Assembly (NCBI GenBank): GCA_019636345.1
Contig: JAHBXQ010000003.1
Span: forward strand, 62,001 to 126,000
Origin: Pirellulales bacterium
GTDB taxonomy: Bacteria; Planctomycetota; Planctomycetia; Pirellulales; Lacipirellulaceae
DNA: 64,000 nt
Direction: 5' to 3'
Of the stretch, positions 17,837-61,517 are shown in pieces; positions within the stretch are counted from its first letter, which is position 1; every line of letters begins with the position of its first letter. The notes beneath the pieces are model-generated. The model saw only the letters and a list, made by a program, of their open reading frames with translations, was not told the origin of the DNA and did no database searches. Made by a program: the position numbers and the translations under genes.

Positions 17837-18373
17837 ATGGGAACCACGTTCAAAGCCGTCGTCATGTTGGCCGCCGTCGGGGGCGGGGTCGCTGCCTGGG
17901 ACAAGTACGGGCCGCTGCCGCCGGAGACCCGGCGCTACGTCGATCAAGCGCTCGGCGCCGCGAAGGGGTTCCTTGCCAACCACCTGCCGCAGTCGTCGCA
18001 GCGCGACGTTGCGGGGCCGAGGATCGACGCTGGCGAACCGTTCGCGGCGCAGAGCGACTCGACCGCGCCGCCGCTGTTTGGCGTCGAGCCCGCACAGGTT
18101 GCGGCTGCGCGGCCGGCGCCGAGTTCGGGGCCGGCCGCGCAGCCGCTGTTGGACCAGTTGGTGAAGCTGGGGATCGGCGAGTACGAACTGGCCCGGTGGG
18201 GTTCCCGCGGCGATCTGTATCGGTTCCGCTGTGCGGCCCCGTTGGCCGGCAGCATGGACCAGGCCCGGCAGTTCGAGGCGATCGCCCCGACACCGTTGGC
18301 GTCGGTCGAGCAAGTGCTCGGCGAGGTCTCCGCGTGGCGGCTGGCGCGGAGCGGGGGACAGTTCACGCGTTAG
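17837..18373 (+). CDS. Hypothetical membrane-anchored protein
   Basis: A 178-residue protein starting MGTTFKAVVMLAAVGGGVAAWDKYGPLP: a short hydrophobic N-terminal segment (anchor or uncleaved signal) followed by an Ala/Pro/Ser-rich linker and a compact C-terminal domain ('QPLLDQLVKLGIGEYELARWGSRGDLYRFRCAAPL' to 'FEAIAPTPLASVEQVLGEVSAWRLAR'). I do not recognise it. An upstream ATG at 17774 is in frame but would give an unlikely basic extension. It diverges from the cysteine desulfurase and lies upstream of scpB. The regular 'YELARWGSRGDLYRF' pattern argues for a real gene. Confidence 0.65.
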   Translation: MGTTFKAVVMLAAVGGGVAAWDKYGPLPPETRRYVDQALGAAKGFLANHLPQSSQRDVAGPRIDAGEPFAAQSDSTAPPLFGVEPAQVAAARPAPSSGPAAQPLLDQLVKLGIGEYELARWGSRGDLYRFRCAAPLAGSMDQARQFEAIAPTPLASVEQVLGEVSAWRLARSGGQFTR

Positions 18374-29141: not shown

Positions 29142-29211
29142 CGAGCCGGGAAGCGTCAGCTCCCGGAGTCAACGTTGTCGCGCGCTCCGGGAGCTGACGC
29201 TTCCCGGCTCG
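29142..29211. repeat. Perfect 27-bp inverted repeat (palindromic element)
   Basis: Two perfect 27-bp arms (29142-29168 and 29185-29211), with the sequence CGAGCCGGGAAGCGTCAGCT... and its complement, enclose a 16-bp spacer. The element lies 24 bp beyond the stop codon of the SNF2 gene and upstream of the XRE gene on the same strand. It could act as a terminator or mRNA stabiliser, but perfect arms of this length suggest a REP-like mobile palindrome. There is no T-run. Confidence 0.85.
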
Positions 29212-32603: not shown

Positions 32604-32929
32604 CGGGAGGATGTCCTTGCCACGGGCGTGTTGCACGTCGGGGGTGGAGCACGCGATCAGTATGGGGGCGACGTCGGCGTCTGCCAACGCCGAACGGGGC
32701 GCCGCCGTGAGCGCTCCGCGGGCGATTCGAAGCTTCTTCGCCCCTTGATAACGATTGCGCAAGGGGGGTACGATGGAGCGATTTTACTCGCTGAAATTGC
32801 GATCGGAAGGCAGGCGGTTCGGCGCCCCGGGACCGGGGACGCCGGTTCGCGTGACGGTTGGTTGCCGGCGCCTGCACGACTCTCCCCCCTCGCCTCCGAC
32901 CTCTCCCCTCTCACCCCTTAAGAATTGCC
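32604..32929. promoter_or_regulatory. Divergent promoter region between the SNF2 gene and carB
   Basis: About 325 bp between two divergent genes, so both promoters must lie here. I do not see a convincing -35/-10 pair. The last 50 bases before the carB GTG (32881-32929) are almost pure pyrimidine on the coding strand (CT-rich blocks with CCCCCCT and CTCCGACCTCTCC), with no Shine-Dalgarno. Confidence 0.45.
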
Positions 32930-35900
32930 GTGCCGCGTCGCGACGACATCAAGAAGATCCTGCTCATCGGTTCCGGTCCGATCGTCATCGGGCAGGCGTG
33001 CGAGTTCGACTACTCCGGCACGCAGGCCTGCAAGGCGCTGCGCGAGGAGGGGTACGAAGTCGTGCTGGTGAACAGCAACCCCGCGACGATCATGACCGAC
33101 CCGGCCACGGCCGAGCGGACCTATATCGAGCCGCTCACGTGGGAGATCGTCGAGAAGGTGATCGCCAAGGAGCGGCCCGACGCGCTGCTTCCCACGCTCG
33201 GCGGGCAGACGGGGCTCAACGTGGCGATGGACCTCGAGCGCCACGGCGTGCTTGCCAAGTACGGCGTCGAAATGATCGGCGCCAAGGCCGACGTCATCGA
33301 CAAGGCCGAGAGCCGCGAGCGATTCAAGCAGGCAATGGCCAAGATCGGTTTGGACGTGTGCCGGGGAAAGACGGTCAACTCGATGGCCGAGGCGCGGGCG
33401 TGGATCGAGGAGATCAGTCTGCCGGCGATCATTCGCCCCAGCTTCACGATGGGGGGGGCGGGGTCGGGGATCGCCTACAACCGGCACGAGTTCGACGAGA
33501 TGGTCCTCCGCGGGCTCGACCTGTCGCCCGTCAATCAGGTGCTGGTCGAGGAGTCGATCATCGGCTGGAAAGAGTACGAGATGGAGGTGGTGCGCGACGT
33601 CGACGACAACGTCGTGATCATTTGCTCGATCGAAAACTTCGATCCGATGGGGGTCCATACGGGCGATTCGATCACCGTGGCCCCGGCGCAAACGCTCACC
33701 GACAAGGAATACCAGCGGATGCGCGACGCGAGTCTCGCGGTGATTCGCGAGATCGGCGTCGAGACCGGCGGGTCGAACATCCAATTCGCGATCAATCCCG
33801 ACAACGGCCGAATGATCGTCATCGAGATGAATCCGCGGGTGAGTCGCTCGAGCGCCCTGGCGTCGAAGGCCACGGGCTTTCCGATCGCCAAAATCGCCGC
33901 GAAGCTGGCCGTGGGATATCGGCTGCACGAGTTGCCCAACGACATTACGCGCGAAACGAAGGCCTGCTTCGAGCCGACGATCGACTACGTCGTGACGAAG
34001 ATGCCGCGGTTCGCGTTTGAGAAGTTCCCCGAGGCCGACGATACGCTGATGACGCAAATGAAAAGCGTCGGCGAGACGATGGCGATCGGCAGCACGTTCA
34101 AAGAGTCGTTCCAGAAGGCGCTGCGGGGGTTGGAGATCGGCTGCTTCGGCTTCGGGAGCGACGGCACGGACCTGTGGGGAACCGACCGCCAGCCGACGCG
34201 CGAGGAGATCGACGCCAAGCTGTCGCGCCCCTGTCCCGAGCGCATTCACTATCTGCGCTACGCCTTCAAGGACGGAATGACGGTCGACGAGGCGTTCGAC
34301 CTGACGAAGATCGATCGTTGGTTCCTCGACAATCTTCACGAGATCGTCGAGATGGAGGAAGAGATTCGCGCCGCGGGGAGCCTCGCGGCGACGACCCCCG
34401 AATTGTTGCGCACGGCCAAGCGGTTCGGCTTCTCCGATCGGCAGCTCGCGGTCATGCTCGGCTCGAGCGACATGGAGGTCCGCGCAAAGCGAATCGAGTG
34501 GGGGATTCTTGCCGCGTTCAAGTCGGTCGACACGTGCGCCGCCGAGTTCGAGGCGTACACGCCGTACTACTATTCGACCTACGAAACTGAGGACGAGGTG
34601 CCGCCGAAGGAAGAGCGGCTGGCCGCGCTGGACGCGAGGCGCGAGGCGCGAGGCGAGAGCAACGACCAACTCGCGCCCCGCGCCTCGCAACCCGAAACTT
34701 CTCTCCGCACCGTCATGATCCTCGGCGGGGGGCCCAATCGGATCGGGCAGGGGATCGAGTTCGACTACTGCTGCTGCCACGCCAGCTTCGCCCTGCGCGA
34801 GTTGGGGATCGAGTCGGTCATGGTCAACTCGAACCCCGAGACCGTGAGCACCGACTATGACACGAGCGACCTGCTGTTCTTCGAGCCGCTGACCGTCGAG
34901 GACGTGCTGAACATCTGCGACCGCGTCGAGCCGGACGGCGTGATCGTGCAGTTCGGCGGGCAAACGCCGCTCAATCTGGCCCGAGCGCTCCAGGACGCCG
35001 GCGTGCCGATCATCGGCACCAGCGTCGAGGCGATCGAGGCGGCCGAGGATCGCGAGAAGTTCCACGCGATGATCGAGCGTCTCGGCTTGCGGCAGCCGCC
35101 GGGAGGAATCGCCCGCACCACGGCCGAGGCGAAGGCGATCGCCGAGCGGATCGGCTACCCGCTCCTCGTGCGGCCCAGCTTCGTTCTGGGAGGGCGGGCG
35201 ATGGAGATCTGTTACGACAACGCCCAGCTCGAGCAATTCGTCGCCGCGGCGTTCGTCGTCGCCCAGGGGCAGCCGGTGCTGTTGGACAGCTTCCTCGAAA
35301 GCGCCACCGAGGTCGACGTCGACGCAATCGGCGACGGGACCGACGTGATCGTCCCCGGGATCATGGAGCACATCGAGGAGGCGGGGGTCCACTCGGGGGA
35401 CTCGGCCTGCGCGATTCCCCCTTACAGTTTGCCGGGCCCGGTGGTGCAGGAGATCCGCGCCGCGGCCGTGGCCCTCGCCAAGGATCTCGACGTTCGCGGA
35501 CTGATGAACGTGCAGTTCGCGGTGAGGTGGGAGCGGAGGGAAAAGGGCGCCGAGGTCGGAGGTCGGGGGCTCGAGACGGGCGCCCCGGCTGCCGCAGGTT
35601 CTGAGCTTCGACCTCTGGTCTCCGATCCCCACCCCGTGGTCTACGTCATCGAAGTCAACCCGCGGGCCAGTCGCACGGCGCCGTTCGTGGCCAAGGCGAC
35701 GGGGATGCCAGTCGCGCGGATCGCGGCCAAGGTCATGGCCGGGGTGAGTCTGGTCGAGCAGGGTTGCACCCAGGACCCGGTGCCGGCTTACGTTTCGGTG
35801 AAGGAGAGCGTGTTTCCGTTCATCAAGTTCGTCGGGGTCGACATCGTGCTGGGGCCCGAGATGCGTTCGACCGGCGAGGTGATGGGCACGAGCGAACGGT

Positions 35901-36352
35901 TCAGCATGGCGTTCGCCAAGAGCCAACTGGCCGCCGGGACCGTGCTTCCCAATACCGGCAACGTGTTTCTCAGCATGAACGATCGCGGCAAAGGGGCCGT
36001 CGTCGAGCATGCTCAAAAGCTTCACGCGATGGGTTTCGGCCTGTTGGCGACCGACGGCACGGCCAAGGTCATCGAGGACGCGGGGCTGCCGGTGCGACGC
36101 GTGAAAAAGCTCAGCCAAGGGAAGCCGAACCTGATCGACTTTCTGGCCGACGGCGACGTGGCGCTGGTGATGAACACCCCCCGCGGCAAGGGCGCCCGAA
36201 CCGACGAAGGGATTATCCGCGCCGCGGCGGTGCAGGCCCGCGTGCCGTGCCTGACGACGATGGAAGCGGTCTCGGCGGCTGTGCTCGCGATGGAATCGCT
36301 GCAGAGCGAGGAGATGGACGTGCTCGCGCTGCAGGATCGGTTTGCGGAGTAG
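32930..36352 (+). CDS. carB: Carbamoyl-phosphate synthase large subunit
   Basis: A 1140-residue synthetase that makes carbamoyl phosphate from bicarbonate, ammonia and two ATP, for arginine and pyrimidines. Both ATP-grasp halves are clear: '[29 protein letters not shown]', '[11 protein letters not shown]', '[13 protein letters not shown]', then '[30 protein letters not shown]', '[17 protein letters not shown]', '[10 protein letters not shown]' and '[22 protein letters not shown]', plus the C-terminal MGS-like allosteric domain. The start is a GTG at 32930 (VPRRDDIKK). The family norm is about 1075-1080 residues; the surplus is explained by two in-frame insertions, at about residues 567-594 (linker between halves) and 867-902 (inside the second ATP-grasp). 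No carA is adjacent. Confidence 0.97.
34630..34710 (+). repeat. In-frame repeat-like insertion 1 in carB
   Basis: A low-complexity, purine-rich stretch built of GCGAGGC units whose right part (GCCCCGCGCCTCGC) is the near-complement of its left part, giving an imperfect inverted repeat. It encodes about 27 residues ([18 protein letters not shown]...) not expected in CarB and keeps the frame. It falls in the flexible linker between the two synthetase halves. Confidence 0.6.
35527..35633 (+). repeat. In-frame repeat-like insertion 2 in carB
   Basis: Between 'LMNVQFAV' and '[13 protein letters not shown]', where CarB normally has only three or four residues, about 36 extra codons are present ([19 protein letters not shown]...). 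The DNA contains GAGGTCGGAGGTCGG and, further on, CGACCTCTGGTCTCCGATCC, an imperfect inverted repeat. The same CGACCTCT pattern occurs in the leader just upstream of carB (near 32898). Confidence 0.65.
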
Positions 36353-47700: not shown

Positions 47701-49783
47701 CGTACTCCTCCTGCTCGCGGGCGTCGACGGCGTCGGCCTCGGCGGCGACGGCCCGATCGCGCTCGGCGTCGGCCCGCACCTTCTCTGCTTCGGCCCGCTC
47801 TTTTTCCGTCTCGGCGCGTTCCCGTTCGGTGTTCGCCCGATCGCGCTCCGATTCGGCGGTCGCCTGGGCCTTCTCGGCCCGCTGGCGTTGCTCGGATTCT
47901 TTGCCGCGAGCTTCTTCGGCGGCCAGGTAGTTTTGTTTGGCCTCGCCCTCGGCCTTGACGGCCCGATCGCGCTGGACGAACGCCTCGTTCCGTTCCCGGC
48001 GGACCGCGACGTACGCTCCGGAGCCGATGACGACGACCGCCGCCGCGAGCGCCGCGACGGCGCCCTTGAGGAGCTTGATCCGCCGCTTGCGCGACTCCCG
48101 CTCGGCGCGGGCGTGCTGCAACTTTTCGACGACCGGGGCGTGCCGCGCCTCGGAGGTCGAGACCAGCGACAACCCGAGGTCGAGGTCCCCCTTGGCGAGC
48201 GCCAGCTCGGCGTACTGTTGCCGCGCGGCGACCAGCAGGTGTTCGGCGCGGCGGTTGTCGCGCCACAGCTCCAGCGCCTCTTCGAGCGCGTACATGCTGC
48301 GGGCGAACGGCTCGTAGTCGCTGGCTCCTTCGGCTGCGGCCAGCGTCTTGGCCGCGCTGTCGGTCAGCACGATGCTTTCGCTGTGCGATTGGTAGGTGCG
48401 GATCGCGTCCTGCATCGCCCGGACCGATGCGTAACGATCTTCGGGCTTCGTGGCCATTGCGTGCCGGGCGATCTCCATGAGCTCGCCGCCGGCGTCGACC
48501 GCCACGATTTTGTTCTTGGCCGCGGCCAGCAGGCAGTCCATGACCGTCTTGCCCGTGTGCGGCGGCCGACCGGAGACGATCTCGAACAGGATGGCGCCCA
48601 GCAGGTAGACGTCGCTGGAGGCGGTGACCGAGTCGATCGGCCCGCTGGCCATTTCGGGCGCCATGTACGCCGGGGTTCCTCCCATGGCGTTCGACTGGCT
48701 CACCGAGCCGGCGCCGGGAAACTCGGGGCTGATCCGCGCGAGGCCCCAGTCCATGACCAGCACCTCGCCGTAGTCGCCGAGCATGATGTTCTCGGGCTTC
48801 AGGTCGCGGTGAATCACCCCGTTGGCGTGGGCGAAGGCCACCGCGTCGGCGACGCGCAGCAGGATGTTCAGGTTGTCGTCCAGCGACTGCTCGGCGATCA
48901 CCTTGTTCCAGGGGGTCCCTTTGACCTTCTTCATCGAGTAGAAGAGGGCCCCGTCCTTGTTCGACCCCAGGTCGTAGATCGGGACGATGTTCGGGTGATC
49001 GAGCTCGCCGGTGACGACCGCTTCGGAGATGAACTTGTCGCGCTGCTCGTCGGACTTTTCGCCGGCGCCCTTGAGCATCTTCACCGCGACGGTTCGGGCG
49101 ATCGACGACTGACGAGCCGAGTAGACGACCCCCATTCCCCCCTCGCCCAACACGTCGAGCAGTTCGTAGTCGGGGGCGTCGTCCGGCGAGGCGATCGTCA
49201 CGTTGTATTTCTTTTCGCCCGGAGCTGCGAGCGATCGCGACTTGACGACGATCGACGATCGCGAGGCCATTTTGCCGACGATCGTGTCTTTCTGCCGAAT
49301 CGTGACGCCCGAGTTGCCGCCCCCCTGGGCGACGGCCGCTTCCCACTGCGAGGTGAGCATCGTCGCGGCGTCGGTCTCGACGTCGTGCGTCGAGGAGAAC
49401 TCGATCGTCGCGTCGGCCCGCAATTCGATCGTCCCCGGCTTGCCTGCGGGGGTCGAGTCGGAGAGTTCCAGCGTATGGAGCGAGTCGTGTTCTGCCGACG
49501 CGCCGACGTCTTCGCCGGGAACCGAGGCGGCGATCGAGTCGAGATCGACCGTGAACTCGATCGTCTTCTCGCCGGCTCCTTGGATCGTGCGCCCCGGATC
49601 GTCCGCAGAGAGAGCCCCCCCGTCGATCGTGCCTTGCGAGGCGGCGAGCTCTTCCTCGGCGATCGTGCGATCGGCGACCCGACGCTGCGGCACGACCGGC
49701 AGCCGCGCGCCGCACGACCCGCACCGACCGGCGAGGCGAGACGCTTCATCAAGTTCAGTCTGGCAAGAGGGGCAGACGAGCAT
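44789..49783 (-). CDS. Transmembrane Ser/Thr protein kinase with 21 WD40 repeats
   Basis: A 1664-residue receptor-like kinase. Residues 1-30 form a zinc-ribbon-like CxxC pair ('CPSCQTELDEASRLAGRCGSCG'). The kinase domain (about 205-480) has 'LGEGGMGVVYSA', 'TVAVKMLKG', 'HRDLKPENIML', 'VLVMDWGLARI' (DWG in place of DFG) and 'GTPAYMAPEMA'. A membrane helix near 575-595 is followed by a long coiled coil of RA/ERE repeats and then 21 WD40-type blades (from about 745 to the end), with classic 'FSPDG..+.TG..D.T.+LWD..TG' repeats. Twenty-one blades would make three seven-bladed propellers. Such WD40 kinases are typical of planctomycetes. ATG start with a pyrimidine-rich leader. Confidence 0.93.
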   Translation of the reverse strand: MLVCPSCQTELDEASRLAGRCGSCGARLPVVPQRRVADRTIAEEELAASQGTIDGGALSADDPGRTIQGAGEKTIEFTVDLDSIAASVPGEDVGASAEHDSLHTLELSDSTPAGKPGTIELRADATIEFSSTHDVETDAATMLTSQWEAAVAQGGGNSGVTIRQKDTIVGKMASRSSIVVKSRSLAAPGEKKYNVTIASPDDAPDYELLDVLGEGGMGVVYSARQSSIARTVAVKMLKGAGEKSDEQRDKFISEAVVTGELDHPNIVPIYDLGSNKDGALFYSMKKVKGTPWNKVIAEQSLDDNLNILLRVADAVAFAHANGVIHRDLKPENIMLGDYGEVLVMDWGLARISPEFPGAGSVSQSNAMGGTPAYMAPEMASGPIDSVTASSDVYLLGAILFEIVSGRPPHTGKTVMDCLLAAAKNKIVAVDAGGELMEIARHAMATKPEDRYASVRAMQDAIRTYQSHSESIVLTDSAAKTLAAAEGASDYEPFARSMYALEEALELWRDNRRAEHLLVAARQQYAELALAKGDLDLGLSLVSTSEARHAPVVEKLQHARAERESRKRRIKLLKGAVAALAAAVVVIGSGAYVAVRRERNEAFVQRDRAVKAEGEAKQNYLAAEEARGKESEQRQRAEKAQATAESERDRANTERERAETEKERAEAEKVRADAERDRAVAAEADAVDAREQEEYAAYVARIGLASAKIEENAFARAKELLAQCPEDLRGFEWGRLNRLCRLAMRAWDLQAPVDAVDFAPDGRHFAAGGWDGAATIWSTDDAEPLVRLPQGQYVHAVAYDPSGERLAAASSDGAVNVYRTADGKLVARLVGHEEAVLCVRFSPDGSQLATGGYDDTVRLWDAATGKELQTLRGHSWWIWAAEFSPDGLRLVTAGQDGKAIVWRRDAATDLFTPLTEFTKHRGAVYAAKFAPDGRRIATAGYDGRVLSWSPDEVEAVDVARRIDRLPDPAAPFVELTGHRGPVRALAFAPDGTQLASGGQDNTIVLWDLAGGTELKRLRGHSSHVRALAFAPDGGLLLSGGRGHEVMLWNPATYAEARLVAAADPAQRDAVLAARFSTDGRQIVTAGRDRKAELWDAKSLARVRQFAEGHDFLASSATFFAGGAQLATGAGDGTVRLWDVGTGAETSALKGAGRTAALAATDDGALVATGSPAGSALVWDARTGKRLAELPGHDAEVTAVAFSPDGLTLAAGDERGHAQLWRLDPATGRWQSAGWLRGHSRTITAMAFYDAGRRLATASGDNTCGVWNVATRQELRELALKHPGWVSDMVVSADGAVALTGCDDGALRLWSLADGKLLRTVAPPRSEAAITAVDLSPDGDLALAVCAAEGTVRLWNLTTGSELSADDAGGSRQAWLSAGRRGGVVWAARFAPDGRGVLAIGGNDARLYDLADRTLRTRFSSHGVVASADLSPDGSRVVTGSWDRTAKIWDAATGRVVAKLEGAHEGYVNAAAFSPDGAWVLTASDDGTARQWNAATGEPLPLVIRGHKGRIRAACYAPDGASILTCGSDKTARVWNAVDGAELMILRGHAWTVRCGAFDAAGRRIATGGDDNAAIVWNAADGQRVAKLAGHTGAVTAVALSPDGRRAVTGSEDSTVKLWDAETGKEILTLGAHDDEVTAVEFAPDGRTILSAGRDGRTLLWDATAW

Positions 49784-61107: not shown

Positions 61108-61517
61108 TCGCTGCGACAATGCTAGCAACGGTCATGCTAGCAGCGGTTGACAAGGGGACAGGCGCCCCGTCGCGAGCCGTTCAGAGGGCATTGGCAATGG
61201 CTCGCGAGCCAGTCCCCTTTTCAACAGCCTGCTATGCGGCGACGGAGCGGCAGGTTTCAGTATACGCATGCTCGGCGCCGGAACCGCTCGGGCGCGTCTC
61301 GCGAATTGTCCGCGGGGGCGTCGCTGGCGCCGCCAGCGGCGCCGGTTCTGGCAGTCGGCGAATTTTTGCCAGTCGAAACGGAATTGGTGGTTGTAGCGGT
61401 CATTGCGGGTCGAAAACGACTCCGTGCAGCGCTGCGCCGGGTGCGGTGCGCCAGCATTGCATCCAATGCCGACATTCGAGGCCGCGTGTGCAGTCTCCGC
61501 CACCAATTTCGCAGCCG
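61108..61517. promoter_or_regulatory. Divergent promoter region of the export cluster
   Basis: About 410 bp between the GAF-HlyD operon and the divergent TolC gene. It holds a duplicated ATGCTAGCA motif (61119, 61134) and the large inverted repeat 61139-61233 (listed separately). No other gene is credible here. Both transcription units should start inside it, so coordinated control is plausible. Confidence 0.45.
61139..61233. repeat. Imperfect 35-40-bp inverted repeat
   Basis: The left arm (61139-61178) and the right arm (61199-61233) are near-complements: both contain AAGGGGAC and CGCGAGCC, separated by a 20-bp spacer. The arms differ by small gaps, as expected of an aged palindromic element. 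The GTTGA(A/C)AAGGGGAC core looks like a dispersed planctomycete intergenic repeat, from memory only. It could also form an mRNA leader structure for the divergent genes. Confidence 0.6.

Follow-up and report, generated by a model that had tools for sequence, protein, structure and literature searches.

The window, by which we mean the whole 64-kb stretch of DNA analysed, contains a carB gene with two long in-frame inserts. The features of this gene and its surroundings are:

32880..32921 (+): pyrimidine-rich run, about 7-periodic by eye, running to about 8 bases ahead of the carB start
32930..36352 (+): carB, carbamoyl-phosphate synthase large subunit, 1140 aa (NCBIfam NF003671, 1638.7 bits; Pfam CPSase domains)
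34598..34711 (+): site 1 region, at the junction of the two CarB halves, with a GGCGCGA heptamer array and a foldback
34634..34688 (+): insert 1 hairpin, with a purine-rich heptamer arm (34634-34652) and a pyrimidine-rich arm (34670-34688)
35525..35638 (+): site 2 region, within the second ATP-grasp beta-hairpin

The likely start is the GTG at 32930, which aligns with residue 1 of E. coli CarB; the reading frame is open upstream of it too. The preliminary description of this DNA held that CarB exceeds the family norm by about 60 residues, that two in-frame stretches make up the excess, and that one of them lies in the second ATP-grasp domain between beta-strands. Alignment to E. coli CarB bore this out: the window protein has 1140 aa vs. 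1073, with two extra blocks at query residues 567 to 591 and 870 to 907, or about 554-559 (site 1) and 833-836 (site 2) in E. coli numbering. Compared with empty relatives, the window inserts are about 28 aa (site 1) and 30 aa (site 2) longer.

The AlphaFold model of the window CarB (28-row alignment; mean pLDDT 81.2, pTM 0.85) presents the CarB fold (Foldseek 1bxr_A, TMq 0.89). The cores of both inserts fall below pLDDT 50 (581-593 and 875-901), as do ten more stretches of the model, and the core of insert 2 lies between strands 860-872 and 905-914. Both insert peptides are thus predicted to be disordered.

At the DNA level, the arms of insert 1 pair at 18 of 19 positions, and no shuffle out of 200 reached the stability of this hairpin (MFE z -4.9); the wider region of 114 nt gives a z of -2.8. 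Insert 2 contains a short GGTCGGA heptamer run (35552-35569), a purine-rich first half and a pyrimidine-rich second half, and its inverted repeat is weak (z -0.35, with 71 of 200 shuffles at least as stable; z -0.8 for the wider region). The imperfect inverted repeats described for both inserts are thus confirmed for the first and not for the second. The trait common to the two inserts is a 7-base period (permutation p 0.002 for insert 1 and 0.004 for insert 2). Only four lag-7 runs in the 64-kb window score at least 8: insert 1 is the top one (34633-34659, score 17.5), insert 2 is the third (35552-35569, score 8.5), and the remaining two are at 49246 (score 9) and 53956 (score 8). The finding of the inserts is real, but the palindrome, which the preliminary description named, is its weaker half, and the main feature, the 7-base period common to both, had been overlooked.

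Distribution and repeat pattern of the inserts across the family

We compared carB among 43 genomes of the family. The gene was missing in two (G014 and G031) and present as a C-terminal fragment only in G001, so 40 genomes entered the comparison (41 rows, with G037 as two fragments). Of 53 rows, 49 gave a readable length for site 1 and 50 for site 2, comprising 38 and 39 family rows and, for each site, 11 of the 12 rows from named planctomycetes outside the family. Counting a site as filled when it exceeded 14 aa, we found site 1 filled in 16 of 38 family rows (22 empty) and site 2 in 16 of 39 (23 empty). None of the 11 readable rows from outside the family was filled at either site. Neither did five further genomes outside the family (G065, G073, G086, G107, and G113) have the site 1 insert, the junction gap being at most 12 nt among the matches listed. 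The closest named relatives by CarB are planctomycete MAGs, with 68-72% identity in the best segment. In one side case, the carB of locus L067, unrelated sequence takes the place of about 25 residues immediately ahead of the junction of the halves, perhaps through a compensated frameshift or an assembly fault.

The CarB tree groups the 41 family rows in a single clade that excludes the named rows (SH-aLRT 99), and on it the two sites changed state at least 7 (site 1) and at least 10 times (site 2); this tree comes from a quick search on columns filled in > 70% of rows, and its gains are not separable from losses. Joint presence at both sites gave a median p of 0.375 in a test on independent pairs. 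In ten of the fourteen genera of the family, the same CarB loops occur filled, empty, or with a rewritten sequence. Length variation also occurs at other loops. The loop after ELRAAG (core column 484) has at least 4 extra residues in 13 of 53 rows, with 24 in G008 and G010, and a fourth site holds one palindrome common to G028 and G038, which belong to different genera, and a 6-residue insert in G023.

The preliminary description had proposed aligning CarB from relatives, and had named a constant sequence across the phylum as the result that would contradict it. We looked for such constancy and did not find it: the inserts vary in sequence and are missing from the named relatives examined. Like RPE-type elements, they are in-frame insertions, lacking in relatives, in a conserved gene.

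The 7-base period is not peculiar to the window. Among the 31 inserts of at least 54 nt (a 51-nt insert at site 1 of G018 was below the limit), 23 had a lag-7 run at p ≤ 0.01 and eight were not 7-periodic; a tandem 7-base unit above chance, as in STRR-like repeats, is thus present in both window inserts and in 23 of 31 overall. With a cut of at most 1 in 100 shuffles, periods 4, 5, 6, 7, 8, 9, and 10 were found in 0, 0, 1, 23, 0, 1, and 0 of the 31 inserts. The pooled match was 0.45 at lag 7 and 0.40 at lag 14, against a shuffle mean of 0.275 and a maximum of 0.295 in 300 shuffles; at lag 3 it was 0.284, the shuffle level. Dropping the eight homologous inserts of the window, G010, G013, and G024 gave a lag-7 value of 0.452 over the remaining 23. 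By eye, the heptamer unit varies by species and by site, and the units at the two sites include GGCGCGA, GGTCGGA, GAGTCGA, GAGTCAA, TTTCGGA, GGAGCGA, GGGGCTA, and GGGGCGA.

Foldback and base order follow a pattern too. Of the 31 inserts plus two at the fourth site, 17 of 33 had an MFE z below -2, compared with 5 of 99 control windows taken from these genes (200 shuffles for each insert, 60 for each control). The first half was the purine-richer one in 27 of 33 inserts vs. 51 of 99 control windows. Neighbouring arrays within carB frames were purine-then-pyrimidine in seven cases, the reverse in none and mixed in two. Outside carB there was no clear order (three purine-then-pyrimidine, two the reverse, and five others). 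The purine/pyrimidine order is unchanged on either DNA strand and is therefore a property of the array.

The 41 carB loci span 702 kb, 28 kb of which come from the window; in them we counted 28 arrays in 128 kb of carB coding sequence and 28 elsewhere, a contrast in density that is biased upward because the loci were picked for carB. All but one of the 28 in carB (27/28) lie in the two sites or in the ELRAAG loop. Of 30 arrays in carB frames, 26 had a stop-free consensus heptamer, vs. 37 of 54 outside (plus strand), or 27 of 31 vs. 36 of 53 once the window's own carB array is moved to its proper side; the carB set of this test spans from stop to stop, including three arrays upstream of the start (L180, L184, and L206), and the stop-free share outside carB equals the random share of 0.687. 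In G025, the third CCCCTAG unit, whose TAG would otherwise be in frame, reads CAG by eye. The stop-free arrays and this CAG fit selection on the reading frame, with modest statistical weight.

Dispersed repeats and the E1 family

The preliminary description also saw a resemblance between the inserts and GA/CT-rich intergenic DNA of the window, and suggested searching the genome for copies. The resemblance proved weak. After masking of the inserts, a match to contig C3 as good as that of insert 1 was reached by 116 of 200 shuffles, and one as good as that of insert 2 by 5 of 200; insert 2 matches best to DNA directly ahead of a gene identified by eye as alaS. Genome-wide, the top non-self hits of the carB inserts were weak too (E 6.6e-4 and 5.3e-4). 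The better ones for insert 1 included a stretch of IleRS before the KMSKS segment (C2:834079, context by eye) and stretches directly upstream of two start codons (by eye). The pyrimidine-rich run ahead of carB (32880-32921) has a periodicity under the lag-7 array threshold used for the window; 2 of 200 shuffles matched contig C3 as well, and its best match there is just ahead of the start of another gene (alaS by eye).

At the strict threshold, contig C3 has five lag-7 runs, carB itself included, and this density (6.7 per Mb) equals that of lag 6 and is below that of lag 9 (14.7 per Mb). We rejected the window inserts as a sequence-defined dispersed family on contig C3, where their matches were at or near chance in the shuffle test. 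For the same reason, the two window inserts lack the trait of RPE-type elements of being a sequence-conserved family with many copies in the genome. Judged from these sequence searches, the pattern of the window inserts appears unlike that of an abundant mobile family.

Some carB inserts of other genomes behave differently. The site 1 inserts of G008 and G010, both non-7-periodic, match repeats at other places: 28 bp of the G010 insert are repeated at a second carB loop and again about 6.5 kb away from the gene, and G008 has the same pair of carB copies. In G025, half of a periodic insert matches repeats elsewhere. There, a stretch of about 95 nt adjoins the heptamer array and has at least 22 further matches at at least 17 places in the 2.8-Mb genome, 78-96% identical (18 of 281 candidates scored), and two more on the carB contig. 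Thus, a minority of carB inserts (G008/G010 and G025) appear to be REP-like elements. Besides, G039 has one unit type at three carB sites and a GGGGCTA array occurs at further places in G042, G015, G028, and G010, which suggests dispersal rather than purely local birth.

A true dispersed palindrome does exist in this genome, and one pair of copies lies in the window:

29142..29211 (no strand assigned): E1 REPIN, a perfect inverted pair of 27-bp REP copies with a 16-nt spacer (hairpin scan)

This pair is the strongest hairpin of the window and lies 3' of, and outside, the adjacent long ORF. E1 occurs at 17 distinct places of the genome (E ≤ 0.001, strands merged), with inverted pairs at C3:91142, C3:457653, and C4:194856; it is a dispersed palindrome of 20-40 bp, present as singlets and inverted pairs, as REPs are. 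Single copies lie in frame in IleRS, ValRS, and CysRS (C2:834226, C2:158663, and C5:191368). Other hairpins of the window include a strong one within a called gene (18101-18146; 21-nt arms, 20 paired) and an inverted repeat at 61146-61225, GTTGACAAGGGGACAGGC / GCCAGTCCCCTTTTCAAC. The 10-mer GGGGACAGGC occurs five times on contig C3, with about seven expected, and four of these five copies share a longer GTTGA..AAGGGGACAGGC-like context by eye.

Four of the 17 E1 places surround the gene at C3:457004-457627, so that copies flank a RAYT-like gene, and one of them is within its called frame, ahead of the first ATG. The protein scores 22.8 bits against Pfam Y1_Tnp, under the cut-off of 23, and 25.3 bits against NCBIfam REP_Tyr_transpos, well under the cut-off of 80; it is one of three Y1 matches in the genome. 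From its sequence, we regard the product as a putative distant Y1/HUH transposase, RAYT-like, which may act on E1. The carB heptamers are absent by eye from the flanks of this gene, where E1 is found instead. The hairpin scan recovered the E1 pair beside it as a positive control. Within 1.5 kb of 12 other Y1-transposase loci of the family, neither 7-periodic runs nor hairpins of the scored size were found.

E1 is present in 7 of the 43 family genomes and absent from G001, which belongs to the same genus. The comparison with relatives rests on IleRS and CysRS because the ValRS loop was measured in 3 of 30 loci only. The CysRS loop of G001 has 32 residues and no E1, vs. 40 residues in this genome, and G008 has E1 in frame at the same IleRS loop. 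At least 6 extra residues are found in the IleRS loop in 12 of the 29 rows that span it, and 5 of the 10 inserts of at least 42 nt are significantly folded. As heptamers, the IleRS inserts are unsupported (pooled lag-7 0.311 vs. lag-3 0.327 and lag-6 0.318). The CysRS loop before KMSKS has 17-55 residues in all 30 family loci (L403-L432), several of which present small palindromes around GCTTCAGC by eye. In the tRNA synthetases examined, the inserts thus appear to be REP-like or other palindromes, unlike the carB heptamers. A palindromic element inserting in frame in essential genes, as the preliminary description proposed, is found in E1, and the carB inserts are of a different class.

These data bear on the possibility that mobile palindromic elements, either REP/REPINs moved by RAYT-type HUH transposases or RPE-like ones, inserted whole in the CarB loops, the 7-base texture coming with the element or growing later. 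The in-frame E1 copies in three synthetases, the shorter CysRS of G001 (8 residues fewer, no E1), the E1 copies around the RAYT-like gene, and the carB inserts of G008/G010, G025, and G028/G038 with repeat matches or a common palindrome all speak for it. However, the window inserts match contig C3 at or near chance, their arms are arrays rather than a conserved element with fixed ends, and the surroundings of the 12 Y1-transposase loci contained neither hairpins nor 7-periodic runs of the kind sought. Transposition of a defined palindromic element thus seems unsupported for the carB inserts here, the dispersed copies being unconvincing, and we consider this explanation possible but doubtful.

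A proposed local origin of the arrays and competing explanations

The explanation we favour, at a probability of roughly 0.52, is that the carB inserts are local in-frame 7-base arrays, a purine set followed by an approximately complementary pyrimidine set, in tolerant loops. The period, the purine-then-pyrimidine order in carB, the reappearance of inserts with changing units at the same loops, and the predicted disorder are shown by the sequence data; slippage, foldback copying and neutrality of the inserts are what we infer. CarB would have a few loops where added residues are harmless, and in-frame repeat DNA arriving or growing there would survive. Replication slippage in steps of 7 bases would create and alter the arrays on the spot, and foldback (hairpin-templated) copying would write the complement of one arm into the other. 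Since 7 is not divisible by 3, successive units of a tandem heptamer run fall in all three frames. Selection would then retain only those arrays with a total length divisible by 3 and no stop in frame, and only at a few surface loops of CarB. Most carB inserts are probably such heptamer foldback arrays, born and rewritten locally. Cyanobacteria, whose heptamer repeats are documented, also speak for this explanation: lag-7 runs reach 79.9 per Mb in the cyanobacterial DNA examined, vs. 3.2 in beta/gamma-proteobacteria and 47.5 in the family carB loci, carB arrays included.

Several observations go against this explanation, among them the eight inserts that are not 7-periodic and the signs of dispersal given above. 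The arms of the G027 site 1 insert have different heptamers, unlike the outcome of simple foldback copying. Moreover, insert 2 of the window is a poor foldback, contig C3 shows no abundance of 7-periodic runs at the strict threshold, and arrays outside carB have no clear order.

Alternatively, a dedicated activity could write 7-base purine/pyrimidine foldback arrays of a kind common to cyanobacteria, with the CarB loops preferred for reasons of DNA or RNA as well as protein tolerance. It could be a polymerase habit, or a primer or terminal-extension enzyme with a 7-base step. If true, the arrays would keep supplying a core enzyme with new disordered peptide, and we regard such an activity as unlikely.

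A plainer alternative is ordinary low-complexity drift of the loops through generic small duplications, with no special repeat process. Sites 1 and 2 are natural junctions that tolerate length variation, and CysRS has a similar variable loop. Nevertheless, the period is 7 and not the 6 or 9 favoured by codon-preserving duplications, lag 3 stays at the shuffle level, and the purine-then-pyrimidine order and the foldback exceed those of same-gene controls, which makes drift improbable as an explanation. An array kept for its function, as an mRNA hairpin or a regulatory linker at the domain junction, would suit the position of site 1 between the CarB halves and its strong hairpin, but with over half of the family rows empty at each site, a sequence that is not conserved, and poor folding at site 2 of the window, it is very unlikely.

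If the local origin of the arrays is right, an essential enzyme holds a natural record of non-coding repeat DNA turning into protein, and carB shows how repeat DNA can enter core proteins without breaking them. The carB arrays are also many natural replicates for asking where the heptamers and their foldback partners come from, why the unit is 7, and how much peptide load is tolerated. In planctomycetes, inserts of this type interfere with gene calling, structure prediction, and phylogenies built on indels.

Relation to known repeats

RPEs (Rickettsia palindromic elements) are sequence families, and R. baltica, whose repeats are mentioned below, is a planctomycete. The carB arrays share a period and an order, not a sequence. 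In the cyanobacterial tRNA-Leu intron, the P6b loop has complementary heptamer arrays in both arms of a hairpin, and these vary between strains; that stem is intron RNA, whereas the carB arrays are protein-coding.

The likeness of RPEs to the carB inserts is that they are in-frame palindromes in conserved genes (in part from PMC3733652). The preliminary description knew such elements from Rickettsia, which is too narrow: PMC3733652 reports REPs within ORFs of several species, tRNA synthetases included, with the most intragenic GTAG repeats in Opitutus terrae (Verrucomicrobia, PVC superphylum), as well as same-site inserts in recB of two Xanthomonas and, in R. baltica, a plethora of tyrosine transposase genes with flanking repeats. 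These REP-decorated proteins resemble the carB case in having short palindromic repeats in frame in conserved genes. However, in that text they are sequence-defined families with GTAG or CGTC ends, whereas the 7-base carB unit changes by species and site. E1 fits the REP-in-gene pattern described there, its end motif left aside, and is a new member within a known phenomenon. A rare class of Y1 transposases is found mainly in Planctomycetes, Acidobacteria, and Proteobacteria, according to PMC6006769.

Tandem units of exactly 7 bases are known from the heptameric simple sequence repeats of Xanthomonas, Nostoc, and Calothrix and the TAACTGA repeats of Beggiatoaceae, as presented in PMC4692102 and PMC4679880. 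A 2007 study cited there has heptanucleotides as the most abundant long-repeat category in most genomes (PMC4692102; PMC4679880), and slippage is cited for heptameric repeats (PMC4679880). The G-rich heptamer set of Xanthomonas and Nostoc is under-represented in coding regions (PMC4692102) and TAACTGA is mainly intergenic, whereas the carB arrays are in frame in an essential gene and, unlike those repeats, often paired as complementary arrays. Borg tandem repeats are fast-evolving, lie in ORFs under strong selection, and commonly give disordered peptide, and one section of their report is titled 'A conserved aaTR hotspot' (PMC9879509); in ORFs they lead to perfect amino-acid repeats, which the 7-base carB unit does not.

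Among the matches listed from open-licence literature, there was no report of in-frame palindromes or heptamer arrays in planctomycete genes. We regard the carB arrays as an apparently new form because heptamer arrays in planctomycete genes were absent from those matches. In-frame REPs and heptameric repeats are each known; what looks like a new form of them is the repeated occurrence of heptamer foldback arrays at fixed loops of an essential enzyme.

Short-period runs are also seen in other planctomycete DNA. In the named planctomycete loci L063-L074 and L081, 7-base runs reach 49.4 per Mb and 8-base runs 39.5 per Mb, vs. 4.4 per Mb for 8-base runs in the family carB loci. Finally, AATGACC/GGTCATT heptamer hairpins lie outside called genes on contig C3 (607344-607428, 512453-512528, and 424216-424299), and the same unit is found in a long array of the cyanobacterial locus L080.
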